44,867 nt of DNA from Pseudoxanthomonas suwonensis (GTDB taxonomy: Bacteria > Pseudomonadota > Gammaproteobacteria > Xanthomonadales > Xanthomonadaceae), in assembly GCA_030535605.1 (NCBI GenBank), contig JAUNRQ010000015.1:1-44867 (forward strand), written 5' to 3'. Positions 104 to 16,252 of the stretch are shown here, piece after piece (position 1 is the first letter of the stretch; each line of letters opens with the position of its first letter). Under the pieces are notes generated by a model. That model had not been told where the DNA came from. It worked only from the letters and a program-made list of their open reading frames with translations, and made no database searches. Both the position numbers and the translations under genes were made by a program.

Positions 104-162
104 GTTGTCTCGGGATCTGAGACGTGACACAGCTAAGCTGGTGCTGGAATGAGGGGGAAGCC

Positions 163-1134
163 GTGGATGACCTGTCACCTTCCGACTTGAAGTCGATCCT
201 GCTGTCGAAGCGGGCGAATCTCTACTACCTGCAACACTGTCGAGTGCTGGTCAAGGGAGGGCGTGTGACGTACGTGACCGACGCCGGCAAGCAGTCGCTG
301 TACTGGAACATCCCGATTGCCAATACCACGACCGTGTTGCTCGGTACAGGCACCTCGATCACCCAGGCCGCCATGCGGGAACTCGCAAAGGCCGGTGTGC
401 TCGTGGGCTTCTGCGGTGGCGGCGGTACGCCGTTGTTCAGCGCCAATGAGGTGGATGTCGAGGTGGCGTGGTTCGCGCCGCAGAGCGAATACCGCCCTAC
501 CGAGTATCTGCAGTCATGGGTCGCATTTTGGTTTGATGAGCGTCTGCGCTTGCAGGCCGCCCGGCGATTGCAGCATGTGCGTCTTGATTGCATTGCACGC
601 CAGTGGCTGAAATCACGACGGCTTCGAGAGGTTGGTTTCGAGCCGGATGCGCAACATGTCGTTGAATTGTTGGAAGCCTCGGCCCGGGCCATCGACCGGG
701 CGCCAGACGTCAATGCCTTGCTCACCGAGGAAGCGCGCCTGAGCAAGGCGCTATTTCGAATTGCCGCCCAGGCAACCGGTTACGGTAAGTTCACTCGTAC
801 TAAGCGCGGCAGCGGAACCGATCCGGCCAATCGCTTCCTCGATCATGGCAATTATCTCGCCTATGGTTTGGCAGCCAGTGCCACCTGGGTGCTTGGATTG
901 CCGCATGGGCTGGCCGTTCTACATGGCAAGACTCGGCGTGGTGCGCTGGTGTTCGATGTGGCGGATCTGGTCAAGGATGCGACGATCCTGCCCCAAGCGT
1001 TCGTTTCGGCGATGGCGGGACACAGCGAACAGGAGTTTCGCAGCGCTTGCATCGAGCGTCTAACGCAAATGGAGGCGCTGGACCTCATGATCGACACGCT
1101 CAAGCGGGTTGCACTGGGGGTCGCGGTATCGTGA
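163..1134 (+). CDS. cas1: CRISPR-associated endonuclease Cas1, type I-F
   Basis: Cas1 is the integrase that inserts new spacers at the leader end of the array, acting with the Cas2 part of Cas2-3. I place the start at GTG 163 rather than GTG 124. A strong ribosome site (GAGGGGGA, 151-158) lies just ahead of it, and the protein then begins MDDLSPSDLKSILLSKRANL as I-F Cas1 proteins do. At 323 aa its numbering coincides with the well-studied Pseudomonas enzyme: Glu190, His254, Asp265 and Asp268 are all present as the metal-binding active site. The glycine-rich segment GFCGGGGTPLF is also typical of I-F Cas1. The stop overlaps the GTG start of cas2-3 (GTGA), so the two genes are translationally coupled. 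A short inverted repeat, GTCTC/GAGAC (107-123), lies upstream and I see no clear promoter. Confidence 0.97.
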   Translation: MDDLSPSDLKSILLSKRANLYYLQHCRVLVKGGRVTYVTDAGKQSLYWNIPIANTTTVLLGTGTSITQAAMRELAKAGVLVGFCGGGGTPLFSANEVDVEVAWFAPQSEYRPTEYLQSWVAFWFDERLRLQAARRLQHVRLDCIARQWLKSRRLREVGFEPDAQHVVELLEASARAIDRAPDVNALLTEEARLSKALFRIAAQATGYGKFTRTKRGSGTDPANRFLDHGNYLAYGLAASATWVLGLPHGLAVLHGKTRRGALVFDVADLVKDATILPQAFVSAMAGHSEQEFRSACIERLTQMEALDLMIDTLKRVALGVAVS

Positions 1135-4100
1135 ACATCCTTCTGGTGTCCGAGTGCAGTGGCCGCGCCATCAACGAGACGCGCCGTATCCTCGATCAAT
1201 TCGCCGAACGTCGCGGCGAGCGGACATGGCAGACACCTGTCACCAGGGACGGTTTGGATGCTTTGCGCAAACTGTTGCGCAAGTCCGCCCGCAAGAACAC
1301 CGCGGTTGCGTGCCACTGGATACGCGGACTGAACCACTCGGAGCTGCTCTGGATCGTGGGCGACCGACGCCGATTCAATGCGGAAGGTGCGGTGCCGACC
1401 AATCGCACACGCCGGGATGTGCTGCGCAGTTCCGACGAGAATGACTGGCACACGGGGGAGGACATCAGCCTGCTGGCGCAGCTCGCGGCATTGCTGCACG
1501 ACCTCGGCAAGGCCAGCATCGCGTTCCAAATTCGACTCAAGAGCAGTGCGTTCAGTCGGAACCTGTACCGCCACGAATGGGTGTCGTTGCGGATGTTCCT
1601 TGCTTTCGTCGGGTCCGATGACGACGAGGCATGGCTGCGGCGACTCGCCTCGCCCGGCGCGGACGACGACGCGAGCTGGCTCGCCAGCGGCCGCTACTGG
1701 CGGGATGGAATCGATGAGGAAGTCCCGAAGGCATTTGCGGGCCTGCCGCCGCTCGCGGCGGCTGTTGCATGGCTTGTGGTCACCCATCATCGCCTGCTGA
1801 CGCTCCCCGTCAGTGGAGCACCGGACAAGGCATGGTTCGGGAAGCGTTCGTCGGACTTCGCTCCGGAATGGCTTGACGATCTGTGGCTACGAGTTGATGC
1901 GGGTTGGAACGATTGGTCGGCCGAGCGCGACGCTGCATCTCGGCCGGACATCGAGCGTTGCTGGACCATCGCCGGTGCATTGCCGCCACTGATGCCGAAA
2001 TGGCGCCGGAGCGCTTCGAAACTCGCGCAGCGCCTGTTGGCATTGCGGTCCAAGCCTGGGAAGGGCGATTGGCTGAGCAATCCCTACGTCATGCACGTGG
2101 CCAGGATGGGCCTGATGCTTGCCGATCACCACTACTCATCGCTTCCGCCCGATTCGTCGCTGCGGGTGTCCGGTGACATTGATTGCGATCTATTTGCGAA
2201 CACAGATCGGAATGGCCAGTTGAAGCAGCGCTTGGACGAACACCTGCTCGGCGTTGCCCGGGATGCGGCGATGCTCTGCCATGGATTGCAGACTATTGCC
2301 GAAAATCTTCCGGTCCTGCAGCATCGCGCTTTGCGAAAGCGTACGGCAACGGCCCGGTTTCGGTGGCAGGACAAGGCATTCGACGCCGCAGAGGGCATCC
2401 GTGACAAAGCCGCAGAGAACGGCGCCTTCATCGTCAACATGGCCTCCACTGGCCGTGGCAAGACGTTTGCCAATGCCCGAATCATGTACGGGTTGGCGGA
2501 TCCTCACCGTGGCATGCGCTGCAGCTTCGCAGTCGGCCTGCGCACGTTGACCTTGCAGATGGGGAGGAACTACCGCGACATCCTTGGCGTGGGTGACGAT
2601 GAACTGGCGGTACGCGTCGGCGGCTCCGCCAGTCGCCAGTTGTTCGAGTATCACGCAGCATTGGCCGAAAGCACAGGCTCCGCATCAACCCAGGCGCTGA
2701 TCGAGGAAGATGGCGCGGTCTTCTATGAAGGCAACGTGCAGGACCATCCGTTGTTGCGGATGGCCATGGGCGATGAGCGCATTCGCAACCTGTTGTCGGC
2801 GCCATTGCTGGTCTGCACGATCGACCATCTGATGCCAGCGACCGAAGCGCAACGTGCCGGACGCCAGATCGCGCCGATGCTGCGATTGATGAGCAGTGAC
2901 CTGGTGCTCGACGAACCGGACGATTTCGGCATTGATGATTTTCCGGCACTGACCCGGCTGGTTCATTGGGCAGGCTTGCTGGGGTCGCGCGTCCTGCTGT
3001 CGTCGGCAACGTTGCCGCCGGCGCTGGTACAGGGCTTGTTCGAGGCGTACCGTCAGGGGCGGATCCAGTATCAGCGAAATCGTGGAAGTAGTGGTGGGCA
3101 GGCATCGGCACCGCCATCGATCCCGTGTCTTTGGGTGGACGAGTTCAAGACTGTCTCGCAGGACTGTGCGGAAGTGGAGGGTTTTGCTCAGTCGCACGAA
3201 GCGTTCGTGCACGCACGGATCATAAAGCTGGCAGCGCAGCCGCCGAAGCAGCTGGGGCAGCTTTTGCCGCTGCGGATCGACTCCCGGGACAAGAGCCGGA
3301 TTCGTGCCGCCCTCGCATCGCAGGTCGTGGACGCCGCGCTGGACGCCCATCAGTTGCACGCACAGATCGATCCGGTAAGCGGAAAGCGCGTCAGCTTCGG
3401 GTTGGTGCGCATGGCCAACATCGATCCGCTGTTTGACGTGGCACAGGAAGTGTTCCGACTTGGTGCGCCGGATGGTGTGCACATCCATCTTTGCGTCTAT
3501 CACTCCCGTTTTCCGTTGCTGCTGCGATCTGCCATCGAGGAGAACCTTGATGCTGTGCTGGGAAGCCGGGGCAGACGGCTAGAATTGCCCGACATTCGCC
3601 GCGTGCTGGATCACGGCGACGAGCAGGAGCATCTGTTCGTCGTGCTTGCTTCACCCGTGGCCGAAGTCGGTCGCGATCACGACTACGACTGGGCGATTGT
3701 CGAGCCGTCATCGATGCGCTCGCTGATCCAGCTGGCCGGACGCGTTCGGCGGCACCGCGACGCGGGCAATAGTCAACCCAACATATTCGTCTTCGAGACC
3801 AACCTGAAGCACTTCGAACAGCCAGGAAAGCCGGCGTTCGTGCGACCGGGATTCGAGCACCCTGAAAGTCCCGCGCGCGCGAAGGTATTGCACCTCGCGT
3901 CGCATTTCCTGGGGGAGGTGTTGGACAAGGCCGAATACGCGACGATCGACGCGCGACCGCGAATCCAGTCTCGACCAATCGATGCGTTGAAGCCGACCCG
4001 CAGCCTTGTTGATCTGGAGCACGTGCGGATGCTGCTGGCGATGGGCCAATCGGGGCGCGAGCATCCGAATGCAACCACGTTCTTCCGCACCGATAACGCA

Positions 4101-4487
4101 CACCTGACTTGGGCATTGCCGCAACAGCAGCCCTTCCGCGACGACAGCCAAGCACGCGAGCAGACGTTGGTGTTCCTGCCGGATGAGGAGGAAGAGCAGT
4201 TGCTCCTGCATCGTGTAGATGAAAGCCGGTTGCGGCGCAATCAAGAAGGTGTCTACACCTTGGCCCAAGAGTCCCGTGAGCAGGTCCGGCTGGAAATGGG
4301 GCCTCGCATCGCGCCGTGGATGGAATTCGACATGCTCGAACTCCTTCAGCGGTTGGCAGAGGCCCAGCGGATTTCCTTGATGGACGCCGGTCGACGGTTC
4401 ACGACGGTCAGCGTGCCGAAGGTGGGCCCGGATCGTCTGGACCGCTGGCGCTGGCACCCGCTGCTGGGCATGACGTTGGCGAAATGA
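1131..4487 (+). CDS. cas3f: Cas2-Cas3 fusion nuclease-helicase, type I-F
   Basis: This 1118-aa protein is the I-F-specific fusion of Cas2 (adaptation) to Cas3 (target DNA unwinding and degradation). The N-terminal ~100 residues (MNILLVSECSGRAINETRRI...) are the Cas2 domain. The HD nuclease follows, with His123-Asp124 in LLHDLGKA. The superfamily 2 helicase has Walker A TGRGKT at 440-445 (Lys444), the DEAD-type box as DEPD at 594-597, SAT at 625-627 and QLAGRVRR at 867-874. The start is GTG 1131, overlapping the cas1 stop by 4 nt. Longer in-frame starts upstream lie inside cas1 and are not credible. Length and domain order are normal for the family, and all catalytic motifs look intact. It ends only 6 nt before the stop codon of the convergent PIN toxin gene, so antisense transcription from the toxin-antitoxin unit could reach its 3' end. 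Confidence 0.97.
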   Translation: MNILLVSECSGRAINETRRILDQFAERRGERTWQTPVTRDGLDALRKLLRKSARKNTAVACHWIRGLNHSELLWIVGDRRRFNAEGAVPTNRTRRDVLRSSDENDWHTGEDISLLAQLAALLHDLGKASIAFQIRLKSSAFSRNLYRHEWVSLRMFLAFVGSDDDEAWLRRLASPGADDDASWLASGRYWRDGIDEEVPKAFAGLPPLAAAVAWLVVTHHRLLTLPVSGAPDKAWFGKRSSDFAPEWLDDLWLRVDAGWNDWSAERDAASRPDIERCWTIAGALPPLMPKWRRSASKLAQRLLALRSKPGKGDWLSNPYVMHVARMGLMLADHHYSSLPPDSSLRVSGDIDCDLFANTDRNGQLKQRLDEHLLGVARDAAMLCHGLQTIAENLPVLQHRALRKRTATARFRWQDKAFDAAEGIRDKAAENGAFIVNMASTGRGKTFANARIMYGLADPHRGMRCSFAVGLRTLTLQMGRNYRDILGVGDDELAVRVGGSASRQLFEYHAALAESTGSASTQALIEEDGAVFYEGNVQDHPLLRMAMGDERIRNLLSAPLLVCTIDHLMPATEAQRAGRQIAPMLRLMSSDLVLDEPDDFGIDDFPALTRLVHWAGLLGSRVLLSSATLPPALVQGLFEAYRQGRIQYQRNRGSSGGQASAPPSIPCLWVDEFKTVSQDCAEVEGFAQSHEAFVHARIIKLAAQPPKQLGQLLPLRIDSRDKSRIRAALASQVVDAALDAHQLHAQIDPVSGKRVSFGLVRMANIDPLFDVAQEVFRLGAPDGVHIHLCVYHSRFPLLLRSAIEENLDAVLGSRGRRLELPDIRRVLDHGDEQEHLFVVLASPVAEVGRDHDYDWAIVEPSSMRSLIQLAGRVRRHRDAGNSQPNIFVFETNLKHFEQPGKPAFVRPGFEHPESPARAKVLHLASHFLGEVLDKAEYATIDARPRIQSRPIDALKPTRSLVDLEHVRMLLAMGQSGREHPNATTFFRTDNAHLTWALPQQQPFRDDSQAREQTLVFLPDEEEEQLLLHRVDESRLRRNQEGVYTLAQESREQVRLEMGPRIAPWMEFDMLELLQRLAEAQRISLMDAGRRFTTVSVPKVGPDRLDRWRWHPLLGMTLAK

Positions 4488-4493
4488 CCCGGC

Positions 4494-4913
4494 CTACGCC
4501 TGCCACGGATCCAGCAGCGCGACGCCCATCGGGGAGAAAGCGGCGGTGTTCCGCGTCACGACGGTCAATCCGTGCTCCAGCGCCGTGGCGGCGATCAACG
4601 CATCGCGAATGGGGCGCGGGTCGGGGCAGTGCAAGGCCGCACTGCGCAAGGCGACACCGGAATCGACGGCCAGGATCCGACGGTCGAACGCCACCATTAC
4701 CTGCCGGTGTAGCCATTTCCTCAGGATCGCACCCTTTTGCGGATCCCGGCGCTCGGCCAACAGCACGCCGAGCTCGAGTTCTTCCACGCTCACCACTGAC
4801 AGGTGCAGCAGGTGGGTATCCACGGAGTTGGCCCACCCGACGACGCGCGGATCGGCCTTGTTGGCGCGGACCTTGCGCAATTCCGAGACGACGAGCGTGT
4901 CGAGCAGGTACAT
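4494..4913 (-). CDS. PIN-domain toxin (VapC/FitB type)
   Basis: This 139-aa protein has the PIN nuclease layout of type II toxins that cut RNA. Asp opens the fold in YLLDTLVVSEL, Glu follows in SVVSVEELELGV, then Asp in RPIRDALIAATA, and the C-terminal motif is VVTRNTAAF. Most family members have Asn directly after the first Asp-Thr (DTN); here it is Leu. The start is ATG 4913-4911, sharing one base with the antitoxin stop (TGATG), so the two are coupled. A TTG just upstream is less likely. The gene runs opposite to the cas genes and ends 6 nt from the cas2-3 stop. The pair separates cas1-cas2-3 from csy1-4. The target RNA cannot be predicted from sequence. Confidence 0.85.
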   Translation of the reverse strand: MYLLDTLVVSELRKVRANKADPRVVGWANSVDTHLLHLSVVSVEELELGVLLAERRDPQKGAILRKWLHRQVMVAFDRRILAVDSGVALRSAALHCPDPRPIRDALIAATALEHGLTVVTRNTAAFSPMGVALLDPWQA

Positions 4914-5167
4914 CAATCAAGCCCGGCCGGCCGGGGCAGATCCGGGCGTGCGGGGAGGTCGATCTCGATGTTCGCGTCGCCCTCCGGCATTGCCAAGAGA
5001 TCCGTGATGCGGGGCTGCTTTCCAGTCAGCGCCAGATAGTCGCGGATCGACAGCAGGACATGCGCCGGCCGGCCACGGTCGGTGATGAAGACAGGACCTT
5101 CCTCGGCGGCGCGCTTGGCCCGTCCGGTGTCCTGATTGAATTCGCGGCTGGTGAGAGTGAGATTCAT
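4913..5167 (-). CDS. Phd/YefM-family antitoxin
   Basis: This 84-aa protein begins MNLTLTSREFNQDTGRAKRA and continues GPVFITDRGRPAHVLLSIRDYLAL. That is the N-terminal DNA-binding Phd/YefM fold followed by an acidic, proline-rich tail (EGDANIEIDLPARPDLP) that would wrap the toxin. Such antitoxins neutralise the toxin and repress their own promoter. It is the first gene of the toxin-antitoxin unit, and the toxin start overlaps its stop. I see no good Shine-Dalgarno before ATG 5167. Its leader is made of the two CRISPR-repeat-like hairpins described at 5178-5246, so its translation and stability may depend on Csy4 processing as well as on promoter control. Confidence 0.87.
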   Translation of the reverse strand: MNLTLTSREFNQDTGRAKRAAEEGPVFITDRGRPAHVLLSIRDYLALTGKQPRITDLLAMPEGDANIEIDLPARPDLPRPAGLD

Positions 5168-5177
5168 GTTTCTACGT

Positions 5178-5246
5178 TACTACAACTGCCTCTGCGGCAG
5201 TCGATCTGTCAGGAGAATTTCCTAAGCCGAATTCGCTTCGGTAGAC
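5178..5246 (-). ncRNA. Degenerate mini-CRISPR / crRNA-like RNA upstream of the toxin-antitoxin pair
   Basis: Read on the minus strand, 5246-5219 is a 28-nt pseudo-repeat: GTCTA, stem CCGAA, loop GCGAA, stem TTCGG, handle CTTAGGAA. It matches the array repeat at 19 of 28 positions, and four of the nine differences form two compensated base pairs (9-17 and 10-16). Next comes a 13-nt pseudo-spacer at 5218-5206 (ATTCTCCTGACAG). The second pseudo-repeat at 5205-5178 is ATCGA, stem CTGCC, loop GCAGA, stem GGCAG, then a decayed handle. It matches 16 of 28 overall and 12 of 15 in the hairpin, with a compensated 7-19 pair. Cutting by Csy4 after each stem would give a 41-nt RNA (5226-5186) made of an almost perfect 8-nt handle, a short guide and a 3' hairpin. 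Handle decay only in the second copy fits, because that handle is not part of the mature RNA. Transcription and processing are inferred, not seen. Confidence 0.7.
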
Positions 5247-5260
5247 TGTCAGAAGAATGG
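5246..5260 (-). promoter_or_regulatory. Predicted Csy-complex target site with CC PAM
   Basis: On the minus strand, CC at 5260-5259 is followed at once by ATTCTTCTGACAG (5258-5246). This equals the 13-nt pseudo-spacer at 5218-5206 except at position 6 (T instead of C). CC immediately 5' of the protospacer is the type I-F PAM, and position 6 is one of the bases flipped out of the guide in type I effectors, so the difference should not matter. Beyond position 13 the sequences diverge, which favours binding without Cas3 cleavage. The site covers the end of the -10 box and the expected transcription start of the minus-strand promoter. The alternative is a tandemly duplicated antitoxin operator. 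Confidence 0.65.
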
Positions 5261-5284
5261 TACCATATCTGCTGGAATGGTCAA
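5257..5284 (-). promoter_or_regulatory. Promoter of the crRNA-like RNA and toxin-antitoxin unit, with palindromic -10
   Basis: Minus strand: -35 TTGACC (5284-5279), a 16-nt spacer, then -10 TACCAT (5262-5257) preceded by TG in the extended -10 position. Transcription should begin near 5250, just ahead of the first pseudo-repeat. The -10 sits in a perfect 10-bp palindrome, ATGGTACCAT (5257-5266), so the plus strand also reads TGGTACCAT, an extended -10 directed at csy1 with no matching -35. A separate weak candidate for csy1 is TTGAGA (5316-5321). No start site is proven. Confidence 0.5.
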
Positions 5285-5357
5285 GTCTCGTGAACCTCGC
5301 TGTGAGTCGCGGTTCTTGAGACGACCTCACCAGATGCTTAATGGATAGGAGGGAAGA

Positions 5358-6725
5358 ATGGAACGAAGATCAAGTGAATTTCGATCCGCCATCGCGGGCT
5401 TCATCGAAGAACGCCGTGCCGCGAAGGTGAAGGATGGCGTCCCAGGCAACGATGCCAACGCCACCAGGTACGAGTACCACACGTGGCTGACCGACGCTGC
5501 TCGTCGCGTCGGTCAGATCCAGGCGGTCACGCACGTGCTGAAGGCCATCCATCCCGATGCGAAGGGCACCAGTCTGCATGTCGATCCGAATCGACTGGAT
5601 GCGCGACCCGAACTCGGCTCGCAAGTCCTGGGGAATGGGGCGGCCGAAGACATCGTTGGCAACGCGGCCGCACTGGATGTGTACAAGTTGCTGAAGGTGG
5701 AGGTTGAAGGGCGGCGTCTGCTCGACTGGTTTGAAGACGGTGACAGTGATCTTCTGAAGGCTCTGTCGCCGGACGGAGACGTGGCGGCTGAGCTGGCGAA
5801 CGCATTTCGCGGTCTTCGGCGCTCGGCGGAGTGCTACAGCAGTCATGCACAGGCCAAGCAGTTGTACTGGTGCGTCGATGGCGACGCCACGGACGACAGC
5901 CATTTCCACCTCCTGCAGCCCTTGTTTCCGAGCAGCCTTGTCCATGCCGTCCACGAGCAGATCCAGCATGGGCGATTCGGCGATGAAGTCGTCGAGGCCC
6001 GCAAGGCCAGGCGCGACAAGAAGCCGCACCCGGCATCGATCCCCGACTATCCGGGACTGGCGTATCGCAAGCTGGGGGGCACCAAGCCCCAGAATATCTC
6101 GCAGCTGAACTCCGAGCGGCGCGGCATCAACTATCTCCTCGCATCGCTGCCCCCGCGATGGCGGCGTGAGCATCCACGCAAGTTGCATCATGTCACCACG
6201 GCGATTCCGGGAATCCTGTTCTTCGATGACACGCGAGAGATACTGGACCGGTTCGTCGAGCTCCTGAAGTCCTACGATCAGCGGCGGTTGCCGGAGCAGC
6301 AACAGCGAGAGCGCATGGAGCAACGGCTTGGCGCGACCTTGGCTGCTTTCGGAGCCGCCACGACCGCAAGTTTCGAGCCGGGTTGGACGCGGGTGCCGGA
6401 GTGCGAACTCGCGCCATGCGAAAAGGCATGGCTGGATCCCGGCAGGCGCGAGATGGAGGTGCGCGCGGAGAGCGATGATGCCGACGGCCATGCAGACGAT
6501 CGCGCGTTCAATGAGGTGTTTGATCGCCAGGACTGGCCCGACGAAGTCGCCGCCCGATTTGCCGAATGGTTGAACGGCTGGCTGCGCAAGCACGATCTGC
6601 CAGTGGGTGACGTCGAGCTGCGGCACTTTGCCAGGCAGGCCATCGTGGATGCGGTTGATTGGGCAAACCCCATCCGTCGCGATCTTCCAAGCCAGCGATC
6701 CTGGGCGAAGGGGGGCAACCCATGA
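5358..6725 (+). CDS. csy1: Csy1 (Cas8f), large subunit of the I-F surveillance complex
   Basis: Csy1 forms the tail of the I-F effector with Csy2. It holds the crRNA 5' handle and takes part in recognising the CC PAM. The protein is 455 aa, near the family norm. The most diagnostic segment is KLGGTKPQNISQLNSERRG at residues 238-256, conserved in Csy1 proteins. Start ATG 5358 is preceded by a textbook ribosome site, AGGAGG (5347-5352). It is the first gene of the csy unit and its stop overlaps the csy2 start by 4 nt (ATGA). Its upstream region is shared with the divergent toxin-antitoxin unit and contains the predicted Csy-complex target, so self-repression of csy expression is possible. Confidence 0.95.
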   Translation: MERRSSEFRSAIAGFIEERRAAKVKDGVPGNDANATRYEYHTWLTDAARRVGQIQAVTHVLKAIHPDAKGTSLHVDPNRLDARPELGSQVLGNGAAEDIVGNAAALDVYKLLKVEVEGRRLLDWFEDGDSDLLKALSPDGDVAAELANAFRGLRRSAECYSSHAQAKQLYWCVDGDATDDSHFHLLQPLFPSSLVHAVHEQIQHGRFGDEVVEARKARRDKKPHPASIPDYPGLAYRKLGGTKPQNISQLNSERRGINYLLASLPPRWRREHPRKLHHVTTAIPGILFFDDTREILDRFVELLKSYDQRRLPEQQQRERMEQRLGATLAAFGAATTASFEPGWTRVPECELAPCEKAWLDPGRREMEVRAESDDADGHADDRAFNEVFDRQDWPDEVAARFAEWLNGWLRKHDLPVGDVELRHFARQAIVDAVDWANPIRRDLPSQRSWAKGGNP

Positions 6726-9443: not shown

Positions 9444-12400
9444 GTTCACCGCCGCACAGGCGGCTTAGAAATCGGCCGCACCGAGCTTCTCGATGCTGAC
9501 GTCGTTCACCGCCGCACAGGCGGCTTAGAAAACCGCGTGGAAAGACGCCGCGGGGAACATGTAGTTCACCGCCGCACAGGCGGCTTAGAAATACCTCGCG
9601 GGTGCCAACCTCGCGCGCGCCTAGTTCACCGCCGCACAGGCGGCTTAGAAAGAAATCACCGCCCAGCTTGTCGAAGCACAGCAGTTCACCGCCGCACAGG
9701 CGGCTTAGAAATGATGATGTAAGGTGGCGAATGACGGTCCGATGTTCACCGCCGCACAGGCGGCTTAGAAAACGCACGCCTGACAGGTCAGGCCCCGATT
9801 GACGTTCACCGCCGCACAGGCGGCTTAGAAATCGTTGGTTGGCAGCCGTTATGACCGTGTCATGTTCACCGCCGCACAGGCGGCTTAGAAAATGTAGACG
9901 GCGGGCGTGCTGGACTCCGCCATGTTCACCGCCGCACAGGCGGCTTAGAAAAAGCGCGAGTTGGTGCATGGGGTGCGCTCCTTGTTCACCGCCGCACAGG
10001 CGGCTTAGAAAGAGTTGCTGGCCAGCAACGAGATCGCGGGCAGGTTCACCGCCGCACAGGCGGCTTAGAAAATCATGGCGCAGGCATTCGAGTGGAACGG
10101 CTCGTTCACCGCCGCACAGGCGGCTTAGAAATCCACGCAACCCGGACGCACGCCAGATGGCCTGTTCACCGCCGCACAGGCGGCTTAGAAATTTGCCGAA
10201 ATGCGCCGCCGGGGGTATCCCGGGTTCACCGCCGCACAGGCGGCTTAGAAAAATGGTGCCGCTCCCAGTACGGCAGGCTCTTCGTTCACCGCCGCACAGG
10301 CGGCTTAGAAATGTACGCAAGCAACGGATCAGCCACGGAAGTGGTTCACCGCCGCACAGGCGGCTTAGAAAAGGATGTTGACCGACACCTCGAAACCGCT
10401 GTCGTTCACCGCCGCACAGGCGGCTTAGAAAACGCCGGTTGCGCCGGCACCCGCACCCAAGCCGTTCACCGCCGCACAGGCGGCTTAGAAAGAACGTCAT
10501 GTCAACCCGGTTCTACCCGTACTGTTCACCGCCGCACAGGCGGCTTAGAAAGAGAATCTGCAGGTGGCACCAGGGACCAGCATGTTCACCGCCGCACAGG
10601 CGGCTTAGAAATTGAGGACATGGGTAAGTGGCAGGCGCTCAGGGTTCACCGCCGCACAGGCGGCTTAGAAAGTGTATGTCGCGCTCACCCGTAAACCCTC
10701 CCAGTTCACCGCCGCACAGGCGGCTTAGAAAAAGCGTCCGGGCGGCAAGTTGCCTTCATGCACGTTCACCGCCGCACAGGCGGCTTAGAAAAAGGTCGTA
10801 CGGACGCGTGCAGCCGGACCTGAGTTCACCGCCGCACAGGCGGCTTAGAAATTTGTCACCGCGGTGCGCGCCTCGCGCTGCATGTTCACCGCCGCACAGG
10901 CGGCTTAGAAAACGGCTCGGCCAGGCGGTCGTTGATGAAGGTCGTTCACCGCCGCACAGGCGGCTTAGAAAACATCGCTTGCGCGCGGGCCGCGGCCTTG
11001 GCCGTTCACCGCCGCACAGGCGGCTTAGAAAAGCATGGGCTGCGCAATCTTGCGGATGCCTTCGTTCACCGCCGCACAGGCGGCTTAGAAAAAGGTGACG
11101 TTTGCCGCCGGAGTGGAGCGTGTGTTCACCGCCGCACAGGCGGCTTAGAAAACCGGGTCAGCGCTGCGGCGGCCACTCCATTCGTTCACCGCCGCACAGG
11201 CGGCTTAGAAAATCACGCAGAACAACTTGCAGCCGAACACTCCGTTCACCGCCGCACAGGCGGCTTAGAAAAGCACACGCACTGGCATGCGTACCACGCC
11301 ACGGTTCACCGCCGCACAGGCGGCTTAGAAATTGAGGAAAGCGGCCACGGCATCGCTGGTGTCGTTCACCGCCGCACAGGCGGCTTAGAAATGGTCCCCT
11401 TCACCGTGTCGTCGGTGGGGTTCGTTCACCGCCGCACAGGCGGCTTAGAAATGGCCTCGCCAACCCTGGCGACGTCGCGCTCGGTTCACCGCCGCACAGG
11501 CGGCTTAGAAAACAGGGCATCCCTCGTCGCGCCGTCCAGACGAGTTCACCGCCGCACAGGCGGCTTAGAAAGTCCGGCGTCTGGCAAATCAGGTGCGGCA
11601 CGAGTTCACCGCCGCACAGGCGGCTTAGAAAGGAGAGTACGCCGCCGACCATCTCCCGCGCTTGTTCACCGCCGCACAGGCGGCTTAGAAAAGTATCTTC
11701 GCCATCTTCGGCACCGTCGCCATGTTCACCGCCGCACAGGCGGCTTAGAAAATCAGCCACGCGCTGAGCGAGTTCCTCGGCAGGTTCACCGCCGCACAGG
11801 CGGCTTAGAAAATCCTGATCGAGGAGTACGCCGCCGACCTCGAGTTCACCGCCGCACAGGCGGCTTAGAAAACCGGCTGGCATGCAGTGGCCGCGTTCGT
11901 CATGTTCACCGCCGCACAGGCGGCTTAGAAAATGCTCCTTTCCGTGATTCCCGACAACCGCGAGTTCACCGCCGCACAGGCGGCTTAGAAAACCGACGAC
12001 ACGCATGATGACTACCTGCAGATGTTCACCGCCGCACAGGCGGCTTAGAAAAACGCAGAGATCCGCGACCGGAACTACTACTCGTTCACCGCCGCACAGG
12101 CGGCTTAGAAAACTTGCCGAAGCGACGGGCCTGCGACTGACTCGTTCACCGCCGCACAGGCGGCTTAGAAATGATCGCCGCCGCGCCTTATCTGTTGGAG
12201 GCGGTTCACCGCCGCACAGGCGGCTTAGAAAGCTAAATGATGCCGCAGCCGCTTGACACAGCGGTTCACCGCCGCACAGGCGGCTTAGAAAAAGCTGCGA
12301 GCCGAACGCTTCGATGCACGCCAGTTCACCGCCGCACAGGCGGCTTAGAAAATGTCGGCGATGAGCTGTTGGACGGATTCCTGGTTCACCGCCGCACAGG

Positions 12401-15400
12401 CGGCTTAGAAAACCGTCAACGGCAGCACCTCAGCCGCCGGTGTGTTCACCGCCGCACAGGCGGCTTAGAAATTGTCGGTCGGGCAGCCGATGCCGCGGTG
12501 GTGGTTCACCGCCGCACAGGCGGCTTAGAAAAATCAGTCGCGCCGGTGATGTCGGCAAGTTCCGTTCACCGCCGCACAGGCGGCTTAGAAACATCGACGG
12601 GCGAGCGCCGATGAACACCAGGTGTTCACCGCCGCACAGGCGGCTTAGAAAAATCGTCAGCCGCAGCGTCACAGCCGCCCTCCGTTCACCGCCGCACAGG
12701 CGGCTTAGAAAACTTCACCCCGTGTTCCGTGCCGAATGCCTCAGTTCACCGCCGCACAGGCGGCTTAGAAAGGCAGCAGCCGGCCTTCGCGGACCAGGCC
12801 ATCGTTCACCGCCGCACAGGCGGCTTAGAAAATGACACTCGCGCGGAAGCGATCTGGCGGCTAGTTCACCGCCGCACAGGCGGCTTAGAAAGTCATCTGC
12901 GACGACTGCGCAAAGACGCACAAGTTCACCGCCGCACAGGCGGCTTAGAAATTCGCGCGCTCTACAGCAAGCGCAAGGGCGAAGTTCACCGCCGCACAGG
13001 CGGCTTAGAAAAAGGAGATACACCATGGCTTACCTCGGCCAGAGTTCACCGCCGCACAGGCGGCTTAGAAAACAACGGACATGTAGCGGAAGTAGCCGTC
13101 TACGTTCACCGCCGCACAGGCGGCTTAGAAAAGCACGTTTTTGCTGTTCGCGGCGTGCTGTTGGTTCACCGCCGCACAGGCGGCTTAGAAATGGCAACGT
13201 CTCGGTGGTCTGCAAAGACAATTGTTCACCGCCGCACAGGCGGCTTAGGAAACCCACCAGCACAAGCGGCCACCCCATTAGCCGTTCACCGCCGCACAGG
13301 CGGCTTAGAAAACTGCGTTTGCACCGGCCCAGCAAGGGGACAAGTTCACCGCCGCACAGGCGGCTTAGAAATTCTCGGACTCAGCTACAAGACGTTCCAT
13401 CATGTTCACCGCCGCACAGGCGGCTTAGAAAATGTCTTGACGGTTTCAGGCATGACAGCTGGCGTTCACCGCCGCACAGGCGGCTTAGAAAACGCAATGG
13501 CCCATTGATCGGTGGGGCGAACAGTTCACCGCCGCACAGGCGGCTTAGAAAGCGTGCCCCTGCGAACTGACGAACTCAACCCAGTTCACCGCCGCACAGG
13601 CGGCTTAGAAATGTATGAAGTCGGCGAGGGCGGCAACCCGGAAGTTCACCGCCGCACAGGCGGCTTAGAAAAGACAGTCATCGTCACTGGCCCCGTCCCG
13701 AATGTTCACCGCCGCACAGGCGGCTTAGAAATGTGATAGCGCCGATGAGCGAAGCCCAGAACCGTTCACCGCCGCACAGGCGGCTTAGAAATACGTGCGA
13801 CACTACACCGCACAGATGATCGAGTTCACCGCCGCACAGGCGGCTTAGAAAAAGCTCAATCCAGACGAGGTGGCTGACCTCACGTTCACCGCCGCACAGG
13901 CGGCTTAGAAACGCGTCGTCGTGCGGAACGGCACCGATTCGATGTTCACCGCCGCACAGGCGGCTTAGAAAAGGTACAGGGTCGAATAGTTGTCGCGCGT
14001 GGTGTTCACCGCCGCACAGGCGGCTTAGAAAATCGACGGACCCGACGCGCCATTCCTGGCCGAGTTCACCGCCGCACAGGCGGCTTAGAAACGACCGCCT
14101 CCACCCTTTGCCCGCCCGCCGGAGTTCACCGCCGCACAGGCGGCTTAGAAACTGAATTTTCAGTGCCTCCGCGACGACCCAGAGTTCACCGCCGCACAGG
14201 CGGCTTAGAAAGATGGCAAGAAATGGCGGGTGAAATTGTTGTCGTTCACCGCCGCACAGGCGGCTTAGAAAAATCAGCAGGTCATCCAGATGAGCCCTAC
14301 CGTGTTCACCGCCGCACAGGCGGCTTAGCAAAGCGTCGGGCTGGGCAGGGACGGAAACAATCGAGTTCACCGCCGCACAGGCGGCTTAGAAAAAGTCGGC
14401 AAGGCCAAGCAGCTCGGCATGTGCGTTCACCGCCGCACAGGCGGCTTAGAAATGGTGCCAGCGGGATGCGGTGCAGGGACGGTAGTTCACCGCCGCACAG
14501 GCGGCTTAGAAAATCCGATCAAGTGGAGCGCAAGGCGGACAAGGGTTCACCGCCGCACAGGCGGCTTAGAAAGCGAAGCGCGCACGCCACCGCCATCTGT
14601 TCATGTTCACCGCCGCACAGGCGGCTTAGAAAGTCGCCACCTTGTCCGTCACCGCCTGCCACGTGTTCACCGCCGCACAGGCGGCTTAGAAAATGTCGAT
14701 ACCACGGTGCCGGTGTTCGGCCAGGTTCACCGCCGCACAGGCGGCTTAGAAAACGAGTTGAACCGCGTCACGTTGGAGCTTATCGTTCACCGCCGCACAG
14801 GCGGCTTAGAAAAGATCATCAACACCGCGCCGGAGCGTGCCTTCGTTCACCGCCGCACAGGCGGCTTAGAAATCCACATCCCCTCCGCCGGGCAGCGCGT
14901 ACACGTTCACCGCCGCACAGGCGGCTTAGAAAGCGGTGACAAAGGTCCTGGCCGTCAACTGCGTGTTCACCGCCGCACAGGCGGCTTAGAAATCCCCTTC
15001 GGGCCGCGGCCCGAAGATGTCCGGGTTCACCGCCGCACAGGCGGCTTAGAAAGCATCACGGCGCGCACCAACGCGAGGAACACCGTTCACCGCCGCACAG
15101 GCGGCTTAGAAAAGCGGAAAACCTTGTGCGTCACACCCAATGACGTTCACCGCCGCACAGGCGGCTTAGAAAAGTCCGGGTCCGTCTTGCGTGTCATGCC
15201 TCCAGTTCACCGCCGCACAGGCGGCTTAGAAAAAACAGGGCTCCGCATTGGCAAAGGGGATCATGTTCACCGCCGCACAGGCGGCTTAGAAAATGGAGGC
15301 GCTCGAGGACGAAGGCTTGGCCGAGTTCACCGCCGCACAGGCGGCTTGGAAAAACCCCGGCTGCACGCTGGGCGACATCCTCGCGTTCACCGCCGCACAG

Positions 15401-16252
15401 GCGGCTTAGAAAACTCACCCGGGCGCGGGTCCTGCCAGTACGCCGTTCACCGCCGCACAGGCGGCTTAGAAAATGCAGGCCATCACCGAGAAAGCGTTGC
15501 TGAGGTTCACCGCCGCACAGGCGGCTTAGAAAAGCAAGCGGACAACAGCCGAAAATGGCGCTCAGTTCACCGCCGCACAGGCGGCTTAGAAAGCCGATTG
15601 GACATCGCGCATCGCCGGCTGATCGTTCACCGCCGCACAGGCGGCTTAGAAATCGCAGCGCGGGTTTTCCGGATCGTAGATGTAGTTCACCGCCGCACAG
15701 GCGGCTTAGAAAACATTTCCGCAGCGCCCAAATTGCTTCGACCGGTTCACCGCCGCACAGGCGGCTTAGAAAAGATCGGGTGCATCGTGTGCCGCGACCT
15801 CGGCGTTCACCGCCGCACAGGCGGCTTAGAAGGTTGACCTGGGCACGCGCCCGCGACTGAACCAGTTCACCGCCGCACAGGCGGCTTAGAAATTGTCCGG
15901 TTGACGGCCGGTTATCCGGCAGTTGTTCACCGCCGCACAGGCGGCTTAGAAATGACGGCCCCCATCATCGACGCCTGCACGGTTGTTCACCGCCGCACAG
16001 GCGGCTTAGAAATCGTCGGGCTCGATGACTCAACGCTGGCCGTGGTTCACCGCCGCACAGGCGGCTTAGAAAAGCAAGAGAAGACCGCGTGGCATCGCGT
16101 GGTGGTTAACCGCCGCACAGGCGGCTTAGAAATCGCTGCAAAGATCCATGTTCTGGACCTTGACGTTCACCGCCGCACAGGCGGCTTAGAAACGGGTGAT
16201 CCGACGGTGGCGAGGCGGTGGCGGGTTCACCGCCGCACAGGCGGCTTAGAAA
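9444..16252 (+). CRISPR. Type I-F CRISPR array, 114 repeats and 113 spacers
   Basis: The 28-nt repeat consists of GTTCA, stem CCGCC, loop GCACA, stem GGCGG and handle CTTAGAAA. It is a GC-richer version of the usual I-F repeat, with one stem pair swapped from T-A to C-G. Repeats start at 9444 and recur every 60 nt to 14304 (82 copies), then from 14365 every 60 nt to 16225 (32 copies). All spacers are 32 nt except the one at 14332-14364, which is 33. Repeats 1-63 are identical. Single-base variants occur at repeats starting 13224 (A26 to G), 14304 (A26 to C), 15325 (A24 to G), 15805 (A28 to G) and 16105 (C4 to A), all in the leader-distal part. The 60-nt period, a multiple of three, creates long meaningless reading frames on both strands. 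Confidence 0.99.

Follow-up and report, generated by a model that had tools for sequence, protein, structure and literature searches.

The closest described system is the I-F CreTA module (a type VIII toxin-antitoxin, TA, system) of Acinetobacter sp. WCHA45, in which a creA guide lies in the gap between cas3 and csy1 and the toxin is an RNA (PMC10097628). There, creT is a small RNA with a 33-bp mini-ORF, and CreA, whose handles are 8 nt and 20 nt long, mismatches its target at positions 6, 11 and 18. Reviews describe two further systems: CreR (cas-regulating RNA; Liu et al. 2023, as summarized in PMC12737573 and PMC13131331), given for types I-B, I-E and V-A, and CrePA (Shu et al. 2025, as summarized in PMC12737573), a CRISPR-repressed protein toxin in which CreP is typically a KilA-N protein. 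Both are also covered in PMC12948488.

We analysed a 44,867-nt stretch of DNA (hereafter the window) whose I-F locus shares with CreTA, as far as that system is described, the position in the cas3-csy1 gap, the creA orientation, two degenerate repeats with Csy4 hairpins, and a partly matching spacer with a CC PAM and position 6 unpaired. It differs in that the CreTA toxin is an opposite-strand RNA, whereas the window has no recognisable creT and a Phd/PIN pair downstream of the guide, and in spacer length (13 nt in the window, 20 in Acinetobacter). Because creT was tested for and not found, we regard the module as CreA-like but not as CreTA in the defined sense. The likeness to CreR, as reviewed, lies in a guide that resembles a crRNA and is only partly complementary to a promoter next to cas genes, and in the proposed repression without cutting; however, CreR is generally uncoupled from toxin genes, targets cas promoters and is not listed for I-F in the reviewed accounts, and here a Phd/PIN pair lies 10 nt downstream. 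CrePA, as reviewed, resembles our proposal in that guide and effector repress a protein toxin and in that anti-CRISPRs blocking the effector release CreP, but the antitoxin of CreP is the guide itself, whereas in the window a protein antitoxin dedicated to the toxin is predicted (the pair is PhdYeFM_antitox plus PIN, not KilA-N), and the guide lies within the leader of the operon that encodes both. With Phd/VapC-type (PIN) operons the locus shares overlapping antitoxin and PIN toxin genes in a single operon; in ordinary Phd/PIN operons control rests with the antitoxin or with the TA complex, and the window adds a CRISPR guide and target in leader and promoter.

Among the listings obtained from open-licence PubMed Central, no paper described a type II TA operon under the control of a CreA-like guide. 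The sequence-only reading had suggested that such a guide in an I-F locus would be new; this holds, within that literature, for a guide placed before a protein TA pair, and does not hold for CreA guides in the I-F cas3-csy1 gap as such, which are already published (PMC10097628).

A mini-CRISPR between cas2-3 and csy1

The window belongs to a draft assembly of 2.23 Mb in 86 contigs that is about 82% complete and, judging by the nearest named relatives of its Csy1, Lysobacteraceae-like; it contains a complete I-F gene set in the order cas1, cas2-3, a minus-strand Phd/PIN pair, csy1-csy2-csy3-csy4 and the array (Table 1); csy2, csy3 and csy4 were likewise matched by family profiles. The adjacent Phd (PF02604) and PIN (PF01850) genes form one operon of type II TA composition, and their overlap is 1 to 4 nt, according to which start codon is taken. 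The window PIN lacks one near-C-terminal acidic residue that is kept in L013 (its nearest Phd/PIN relative) and in five FitA-linked PINs, so that the activity of the window PIN is uncertain.

Table 1. Coordinates of the mini-CRISPR, its neighbouring genes and the predicted promoters in the window.
Feature	Positions	Strand	Evidence or remark
ΨR1, degenerate I-F repeat; Csy4 stem-loop and 5' handle CTTAGGAA kept	5219..5246	-	19/28 identical to array repeat
ΨS, 13-nt pseudo-spacer (guide) ATTCTCCTGACAG	5206..5218	-	between both repeats
ΨR2, degenerate I-F repeat; stem-loop (3' handle) kept, tail decayed	5178..5205	-	16/28 identical to array repeat
Predicted mature guide RNA, 8 + 13 + 20 = 41 nt	5186..5226	-	I-F crRNA geometry as described for Acinetobacter CreA (PMC10097628)
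Protospacer ATTCTTCTGACAG	5246..5258	-	12/13 match to ΨS, mismatch at position 6
CC PAM, inside predicted -10 box	5259..5260	-	
cas1 and cas2-3 (upstream half of I-F operon)	124..4487	+	PF01867, PF21384, PF22590, PF21802
PIN-domain toxin gene; start overlaps antitoxin end	4494..4916	-	PF01850, E 3.4e-10
Phd/YefM antitoxin gene; start codon 10 nt after ΨR2	4913..5167	-	PF02604, E 1.3e-10
csy1, first of csy1-csy2-csy3-csy4 (to 9315)	5358..6725	+	PF09611, E 1.4e-118
Canonical I-F array, 60-nt period, 113 repeats with conserved first 20 nt	9444..16252	+	
Predicted promoter TTGACC-16-TACCAT for mini-CRISPR and phd-pin	5257..5284	-	10.2 bits
Weaker predicted divergent promoter TTTCCT-18-TAGACT toward csy1	5218..5247	+	7.9 bits, p=0.018

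The mini-CRISPR lies in the stretch of 190 bp that separates the Phd start (5167) from csy1 (5358). Read along the minus strand, this stretch shows in order TTGACC, TACCAT with the CC inside it, the protospacer, ΨR1, ΨS, ΨR2, 10 nt and the phd ATG. With repeat identities this low and a spacer of 13 nt the mini-CRISPR is not a canonical array; it does have the make-up of a creA, namely a pair of degenerate repeats around a pseudo-spacer near cas genes and a partial, CC-flanked match at a nearby predicted promoter, with the PAM included in the predicted -10 box. All coordinates and identities of the repeats, pseudo-spacer and target in the sequence-only reading proved exact on recomputation, as did the recurrence of the 13 nt directly after CC with a sole difference at position 6. 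Its claim of compensatory stem changes was likewise borne out: against CCGCC/GGCGG in the local repeat, the stems read CCGAA/TTCGG in ΨR1 and CTGCC/GGCAG in ΨR2, both 5/5 paired despite the altered bases, and loop positions G11 and A15 are present in both. The mini-CRISPR in the cas3-csy1 gap is confirmed as a real feature of this DNA.

Such repeats are rare in the window. Outside the array, four hits on both strands combine at least 14/28 identity with a perfect stem, of which ΨR1 and ΨR2 are the best two; at a threshold of at least 16/28 with G11 there are two hits, forming one pair, as compared with a mean of 0.53 hits and no pair in 60 Markov sequences scanned in the same way. The guide-target match was equalled by none of 500 guide shuffles (within about 600 nt), and, with position 6 ignored, chance would be expected to give 7e-6 such matches nearby and 3e-4 in the window as a whole. 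Throughout the 2.23-Mb, about 82% complete assembly, the 13-mer (with Y at position 6) is confined to the guide and target sites, and the ΨS version with C at position 6 occurs once. At Rfam gathering scores the window repeats were absent among the 150 of 168 matches listed over five loci; Rfam labels one ΨR1, in L030, as CRISPR-DR4. Chance and tandem duplication were considered as origins and rejected on the basis of the repeat scan, the shuffles and a guide-target distance that varies across relatives.

Occurrence and conservation in related I-F loci

To place the window among its relatives we used the best 80 of 404 loci from a profile search of genome contigs with a 20-sequence Csy1 alignment; a single-protein search of genome contigs and a search of viral contigs returned no relative. 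Among the closest Csy1 relatives are also proteins from metagenome contigs, for example P0002 and P0003, with 66% and 65% identity. The shortest estimated cas3-csy1 gaps of these 80 loci are below 100 bp and the longest about 2 kb. Gap regions scanned likewise numbered 80, i.e. 79 of the loci plus the window (L071 was dropped for its too short upstream stretch), and selection of a repeat pair required at least 4.5 paired stem positions out of 5 and at least 12 matches to the consensus. In 33 of the 80 regions, window included, the minus strand carries two degenerate repeats that form a strong pair with 13-31 nt between them: 30 of 39 with a gap of at least 300 bp, 3 of 39 with a shorter one and neither of the two with unknown gap. 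The same scan gave no pair in 80 equal-length csy1/csy2 coding stretches and none in 400 shuffled gaps. Given the related loci, a chance origin of the structure is very unlikely.

Targets were sought in 34 loci, the 33 with a pair and L006 from the relatives search. The best CC-flanked target lies on the minus strand in 33 of the 34, and in 28 it is equalled by at most five of 500 guide shuffles; the weaker targets are those of L013, L017, L028, L037, L051 and L069 (reached by 22, 263, 40, 8, 200 and 44 shuffles of 500 respectively). For L014 and L017 the second-best target was taken, since the relatives L015/L016 or the strand favoured it. Beyond this set, 8 of 29 class-wide loci (L094-L122) have a pair and 21 do not, and 13 of 29 family-wide loci (L123-L151) have one, mostly in genomes of the first set. 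Short guides are found elsewhere: L145 has an independent 13-nt guide with a 12/13 target match, and the L013 guide is 14 nt long. The sequence-only reading had put forward an alignment of the same gap in related I-F loci, and there the hairpins and the guide-target match do recur.

A few loci depart from this arrangement. No pair was found even at lowered thresholds in the TA-bearing large-gap loci L024, L054, L057, L068, L075 and L085, save for one unlikely pair (score 32.5) inside the AbiEii gene of L057, and L009, outside the large-gap set, has a PIN gene and no pair. L026 and L092 have weak pairs and were left unused. L026 (Thauera sp. Sel9) resembles a longer array: its cas3-csy1 gap contains, around 6157-6427 and in antisense orientation, several I-F-like repeats spaced by multiples of 60 nt, which look like a small true array where other loci have mini-CRISPRs. 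L092 (5365-5753) has two I-F-like repeats, separated by 32 nt, next to a ParE-type gene, and its TA genes lie between these repeats and csy1.

In type I effectors every sixth base is flipped out of pairing. Across 30 non-redundant loci, positions 6, 12 and 18 are mismatched between guide and target in 73 of 86 cases, and the other positions up to 17 in 42 of 440, a contrast (Fisher, 2e-45) whose value is indicative only, given the shared ancestry of the loci. The near-duplicates L015, L037, L082 and L089 were left out of these counts, and the related L014 and L016 were both kept. The pattern persists without L014, L017 and the weak L013, L028, L051 and L069 (58/69 versus 26/353), and it recurs in nine held-out loci, the eight pair-bearing ones of L094-L122 and L004 (21/25 at 6/12/18 versus 7/131 elsewhere; 2e-16).

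Guide and target also change together. The Phd and PIN proteins of the window and L013 are 65% and 75% identical, and at the 11 positions compared (co-variation counts skip positions 6 and 12) five show the same base change in guide and target, position 13 is altered in both to different bases, and none has changed in one partner alone; the guide-target match within L013 itself is modest (10/14; reached by 22 of 500 shuffles). In other comparisons the changes fell in both partners, the guide only and the target only as follows: 4, 0 and 2 for L069/L089; 3 (one to different bases), 1 and 0 for L014/L016; 1, 0 and 1 for L030/L037. The sequence-only reading had named independent drift of the two 13-mers as grounds for giving up the idea of a guide, and between the window and L013 no such drift is seen.

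The two repeats have decayed in different places. Across the 30 non-redundant loci, ΨR1 keeps 202 of 210 positions of its 3' handle (96%) and 61 of 150 of its 5' flank, ΨR2 keeps 69 of 210 (33%) and 82 of 150, and loop positions G11 and A15 are present in 30/30 ΨR1 and 30/30 ΨR2 copies; the selection cut-offs favour stem pairing and part of the handle identity, not this contrast between the handles of ΨR1 and ΨR2. What is kept and what is lost broadly corresponds to the segments that would be retained in, or trimmed from, a processed guide. Use-dependent repeat decay, the mismatches at 6/12/18 and guide-target co-variation together support the earlier suggestion of a Csy guide that would bind its target with an incomplete match. 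The sequence elements, the conservation pattern and the co-variation are direct observations.

Promoters at the target and the toxin-antitoxin slot

Promoters were scored with an E. coli matrix, which may not fit this organism. By this measure the minus promoter of the window (TTGACC at 5284-5279, TACCAT at 5262-5257; p=0.0005 when placed at the PAM and p=0.003 when the whole region is scanned) is the best of 33 loci. Minus promoters at the PAM were also predicted in L070 (9.4 bits, p=0.002; the plus side also has p=0.02) and, more weakly, in L033, L013 and L059 (p=0.03-0.04), all four of which carry PIN operons, and in L065 (p=0.005), which has no TA. Of the 33 loci, 21 have a predicted plus promoter toward csy1 (p<0.05), often with TTGACA and always in the same position next to the PAM; the window is not among them, and there that position scores 1.2 bits (p=0.24). 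Such a promoter usually reads into about 250 nt that often contain a Shine-Dalgarno sequence and a mini-ORF of roughly 10 codons, a layout corresponding to the published I-F CreTA (PMC10097628). When any overlap with the target was allowed, plus won in L013 and L033, L059 was level, and L070 and L084 favoured minus. The weaker plus promoter of the window, directed toward csy1, overlaps the target as well and may be a cas promoter of the kind that a CreR guide would match. The target therefore probably covers two divergent predicted promoters, with the TA direction favoured in the window but not proven. The PAM within the predicted minus -10 box supports the earlier proposal that phd-pin may be controlled by targeting its promoter.

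With only 10 nt between ΨR2 and the phd start, a separate phd promoter would have no room; the first TA codon lies 10-11 nt after ΨR2 in the window, L013, L069 and L089 alike. In L033, L046, L059 and other FitA loci ΨR2 is followed, before the FitA start, by a palindrome-like stretch with TACAAT, which may be a promoter and operator of the TA genes themselves. In the window a perfect 10-bp palindrome, ATGGTACCAT, at 5257-5266 overlaps the -10 box, PAM and target, and could be an antitoxin operator.

The gap is a recurrent site of widely differing protein TA genes. Among 19 other loci with a gap of at least 800 bp, 18 encode protein TA genes of a recognised family on the minus strand, the exception, L081, having an HTH gene only; the families are Phd/PIN (L013, assigned by similarity to the window pair), FitA/PIN, PaaA2/ParE, MqsA (L030, where it alone was recognised, as one long gene), BrnTA, AbiE, MNT/HepT, HipBA and HigB, and held-out loci add CcdAB (L099) and PaaA2 with a weak ParE match (L094). 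The mini-CRISPR is present in 13 of these 19 loci and absent in 6, and it is found as well in loci without a detected protein TA gene. Between L030 and L037, whose flanks are 97% and 83% identical, the distance from ΨR2 to cas3 is about 930 bp (5345-6275) versus 25 bp (3512-3536), L037 retaining mini-CRISPR and target without the TA cassette of L030. In this comparison of two closely related loci the TA genes act like an exchangeable cassette, and the fixed part is the mini-CRISPR.

No creT-like element (a Shine-Dalgarno sequence and mini-ORF by a strict pattern) was found between target and csy1 in the window, where that distance is about 100 nt as compared with usually about 250 nt in relatives with the plus promoter; creT was accordingly rejected for the window, in which no toxic RNA under the targeted promoter was recognised by this strict mini-ORF test. 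The pattern is passed by 13 of 24 loci with a long target-to-csy1 distance, an undercount because it misses some evident cases among relatives, and by none of 9 with a short one, window included; a creT without a mini-ORF would escape it. By eye, L014-L017, L022, L028, L031, L035, L040, L042, L046, L049 and others show a creT-like element some 100-250 nt before csy1, made up of plus promoter, GC hairpin, Shine-Dalgarno sequence and mini-ORF of about 10 codons, some with AGA AGA, and some relatives seem to hold it together with a protein TA pair. The csy1 ribosome-binding stretch of the window at 5345-5360, ATAGGAGGGAAGAATG, resembles by eye the creT-like one of L017, ATAGGAGGGACGAGATG, a likeness that would fit a deletion that removed creT.

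Proposed mechanism, alternatives and implications

We propose, with a probability of roughly 0.6, that a CreA-like guide leads Csy to the phd-pin promoter and represses it without cutting. The predicted minus promoter would give one leader transcript, ΨR1-ΨS-ΨR2-phd-pin, which Csy4 would cut after both hairpins, yielding the 41-nt guide and a phd-pin mRNA that starts 18 nt before its AUG. Csy loaded with this guide would then bind at 5258-5246 through 12 of 13 pairs, the flipped-out position 6 being free to differ, and cover the -10 box, so that the TA operon and the guide itself would be kept low and the weaker divergent promoter toward csy1 perhaps dampened. Loss of the effector, or its block by an anti-CRISPR, would release the operon. 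The creT RNA toxin of I-F CreTA is missing from this scheme and a protein TA pair would stand in its place. Transcription, Csy4 processing, Csy binding with 13 nt, repression and toxicity are steps that we infer, and a guide silencing its own promoter must be self-limiting. The short 13-nt spacer is the main doubt; in a Haloarcula I-B system, as described in PMC10989794, a 20-bp spacer repressed less well than spacers of 21-24 bp.

Because the target is overlapped by a csy1-directed plus promoter too, csy could be the actual output, with the guide acting in CreR-like autorepression mainly on the csy1-csy4 promoter and the TA genes being passengers on a shared leader. Besides that overlapping promoter (p=0.018), this reading can draw on L030 and L037, both with a strong TTGACA-17-TACACT abutting the PAM, 88 nt from csy1 and with no mini-ORF between, on the retention of mini-CRISPR and target in L037 where the TA cassette is lacking, and on the published CreR of types I-B, I-E and V-A (PMC13131331). 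We nevertheless consider it unlikely for the window, where the minus promoter scores clearly better than the plus (10.2 versus 7.9 bits) and the plus promoter position of most relatives is empty. The true output could also be an RNA toxin, a cryptic creT within the 97 nt that separate the target from csy1, as in the Acinetobacter CreTA, whose gap and creA orientation are those seen here (PMC10097628, as described); many relatives have a Shine-Dalgarno sequence and a mini-ORF of about 10 codons in the same place, and L013 has a mini-ORF-like stretch there by eye, though it fails the pattern test. With no passing mini-ORF in the window or in the eight other short-gap loci, and without the plus promoter that most creT-bearing loci have, we hold this to be very improbable.

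That the mini-CRISPR is a non-functional relic, a CreTA module that has lost creT and decayed beside an ordinary TA pair, would account for an unrecognisable creT, degenerate repeats and a short spacer, but the stems, G11/A15, handle, PAM and positions 1-5 and 7-13 are intact, and the co-variation of guide and target with L013 suggests continued selection; we judge decay of this kind to be improbable. The least probable account dispenses with CRISPR altogether and takes the hairpins and the 13-nt direct repeat for antitoxin operators or a 40-nt tandem duplication. The 13-mers do lie 40 nt apart, each preceding a hairpin, and there is the 10-bp palindrome at 5257-5266; however, an operator predicts neither a CC flank nor mismatches at 6, 12 and 18, the guide-target distance varies widely in relatives while PAM, 6-nt mismatch period and repeat anatomy stay constant, and the structure occurs in loci where no protein TA gene was found.

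Extending the preferred reading of a CreA-like guide that represses phd-pin through Csy, we tentatively view the I-F cas3-csy1 gap, at somewhat less than even odds, as an exchangeable addiction slot in which a CreA-like leader guide makes the effector the repressor of a protein TA pair; in the window creT would have been lost, a type II TA substituted, and one Csy complex would shut both the promoter of TA and guide and that of csy. If this is true, diverse TA families (PIN, ParE, CcdAB, HepT, HigB and others) would stand in for one another as guards of CRISPR immunity. The mismatch pattern at 6/12/18 together with co-variation also makes it simple to search other type I loci for such guides, and the set of guides would provide natural data on how little pairing Csy needs for binding without cutting. 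If the proposal holds, a CRISPR effector would be built in as the repressor of an ordinary protein TA operon, which would explain the TA operons within so many I-F cas operons, and phages with anti-CRISPRs would be predicted to trigger the TA pair; two layers of defence would thereby be linked.
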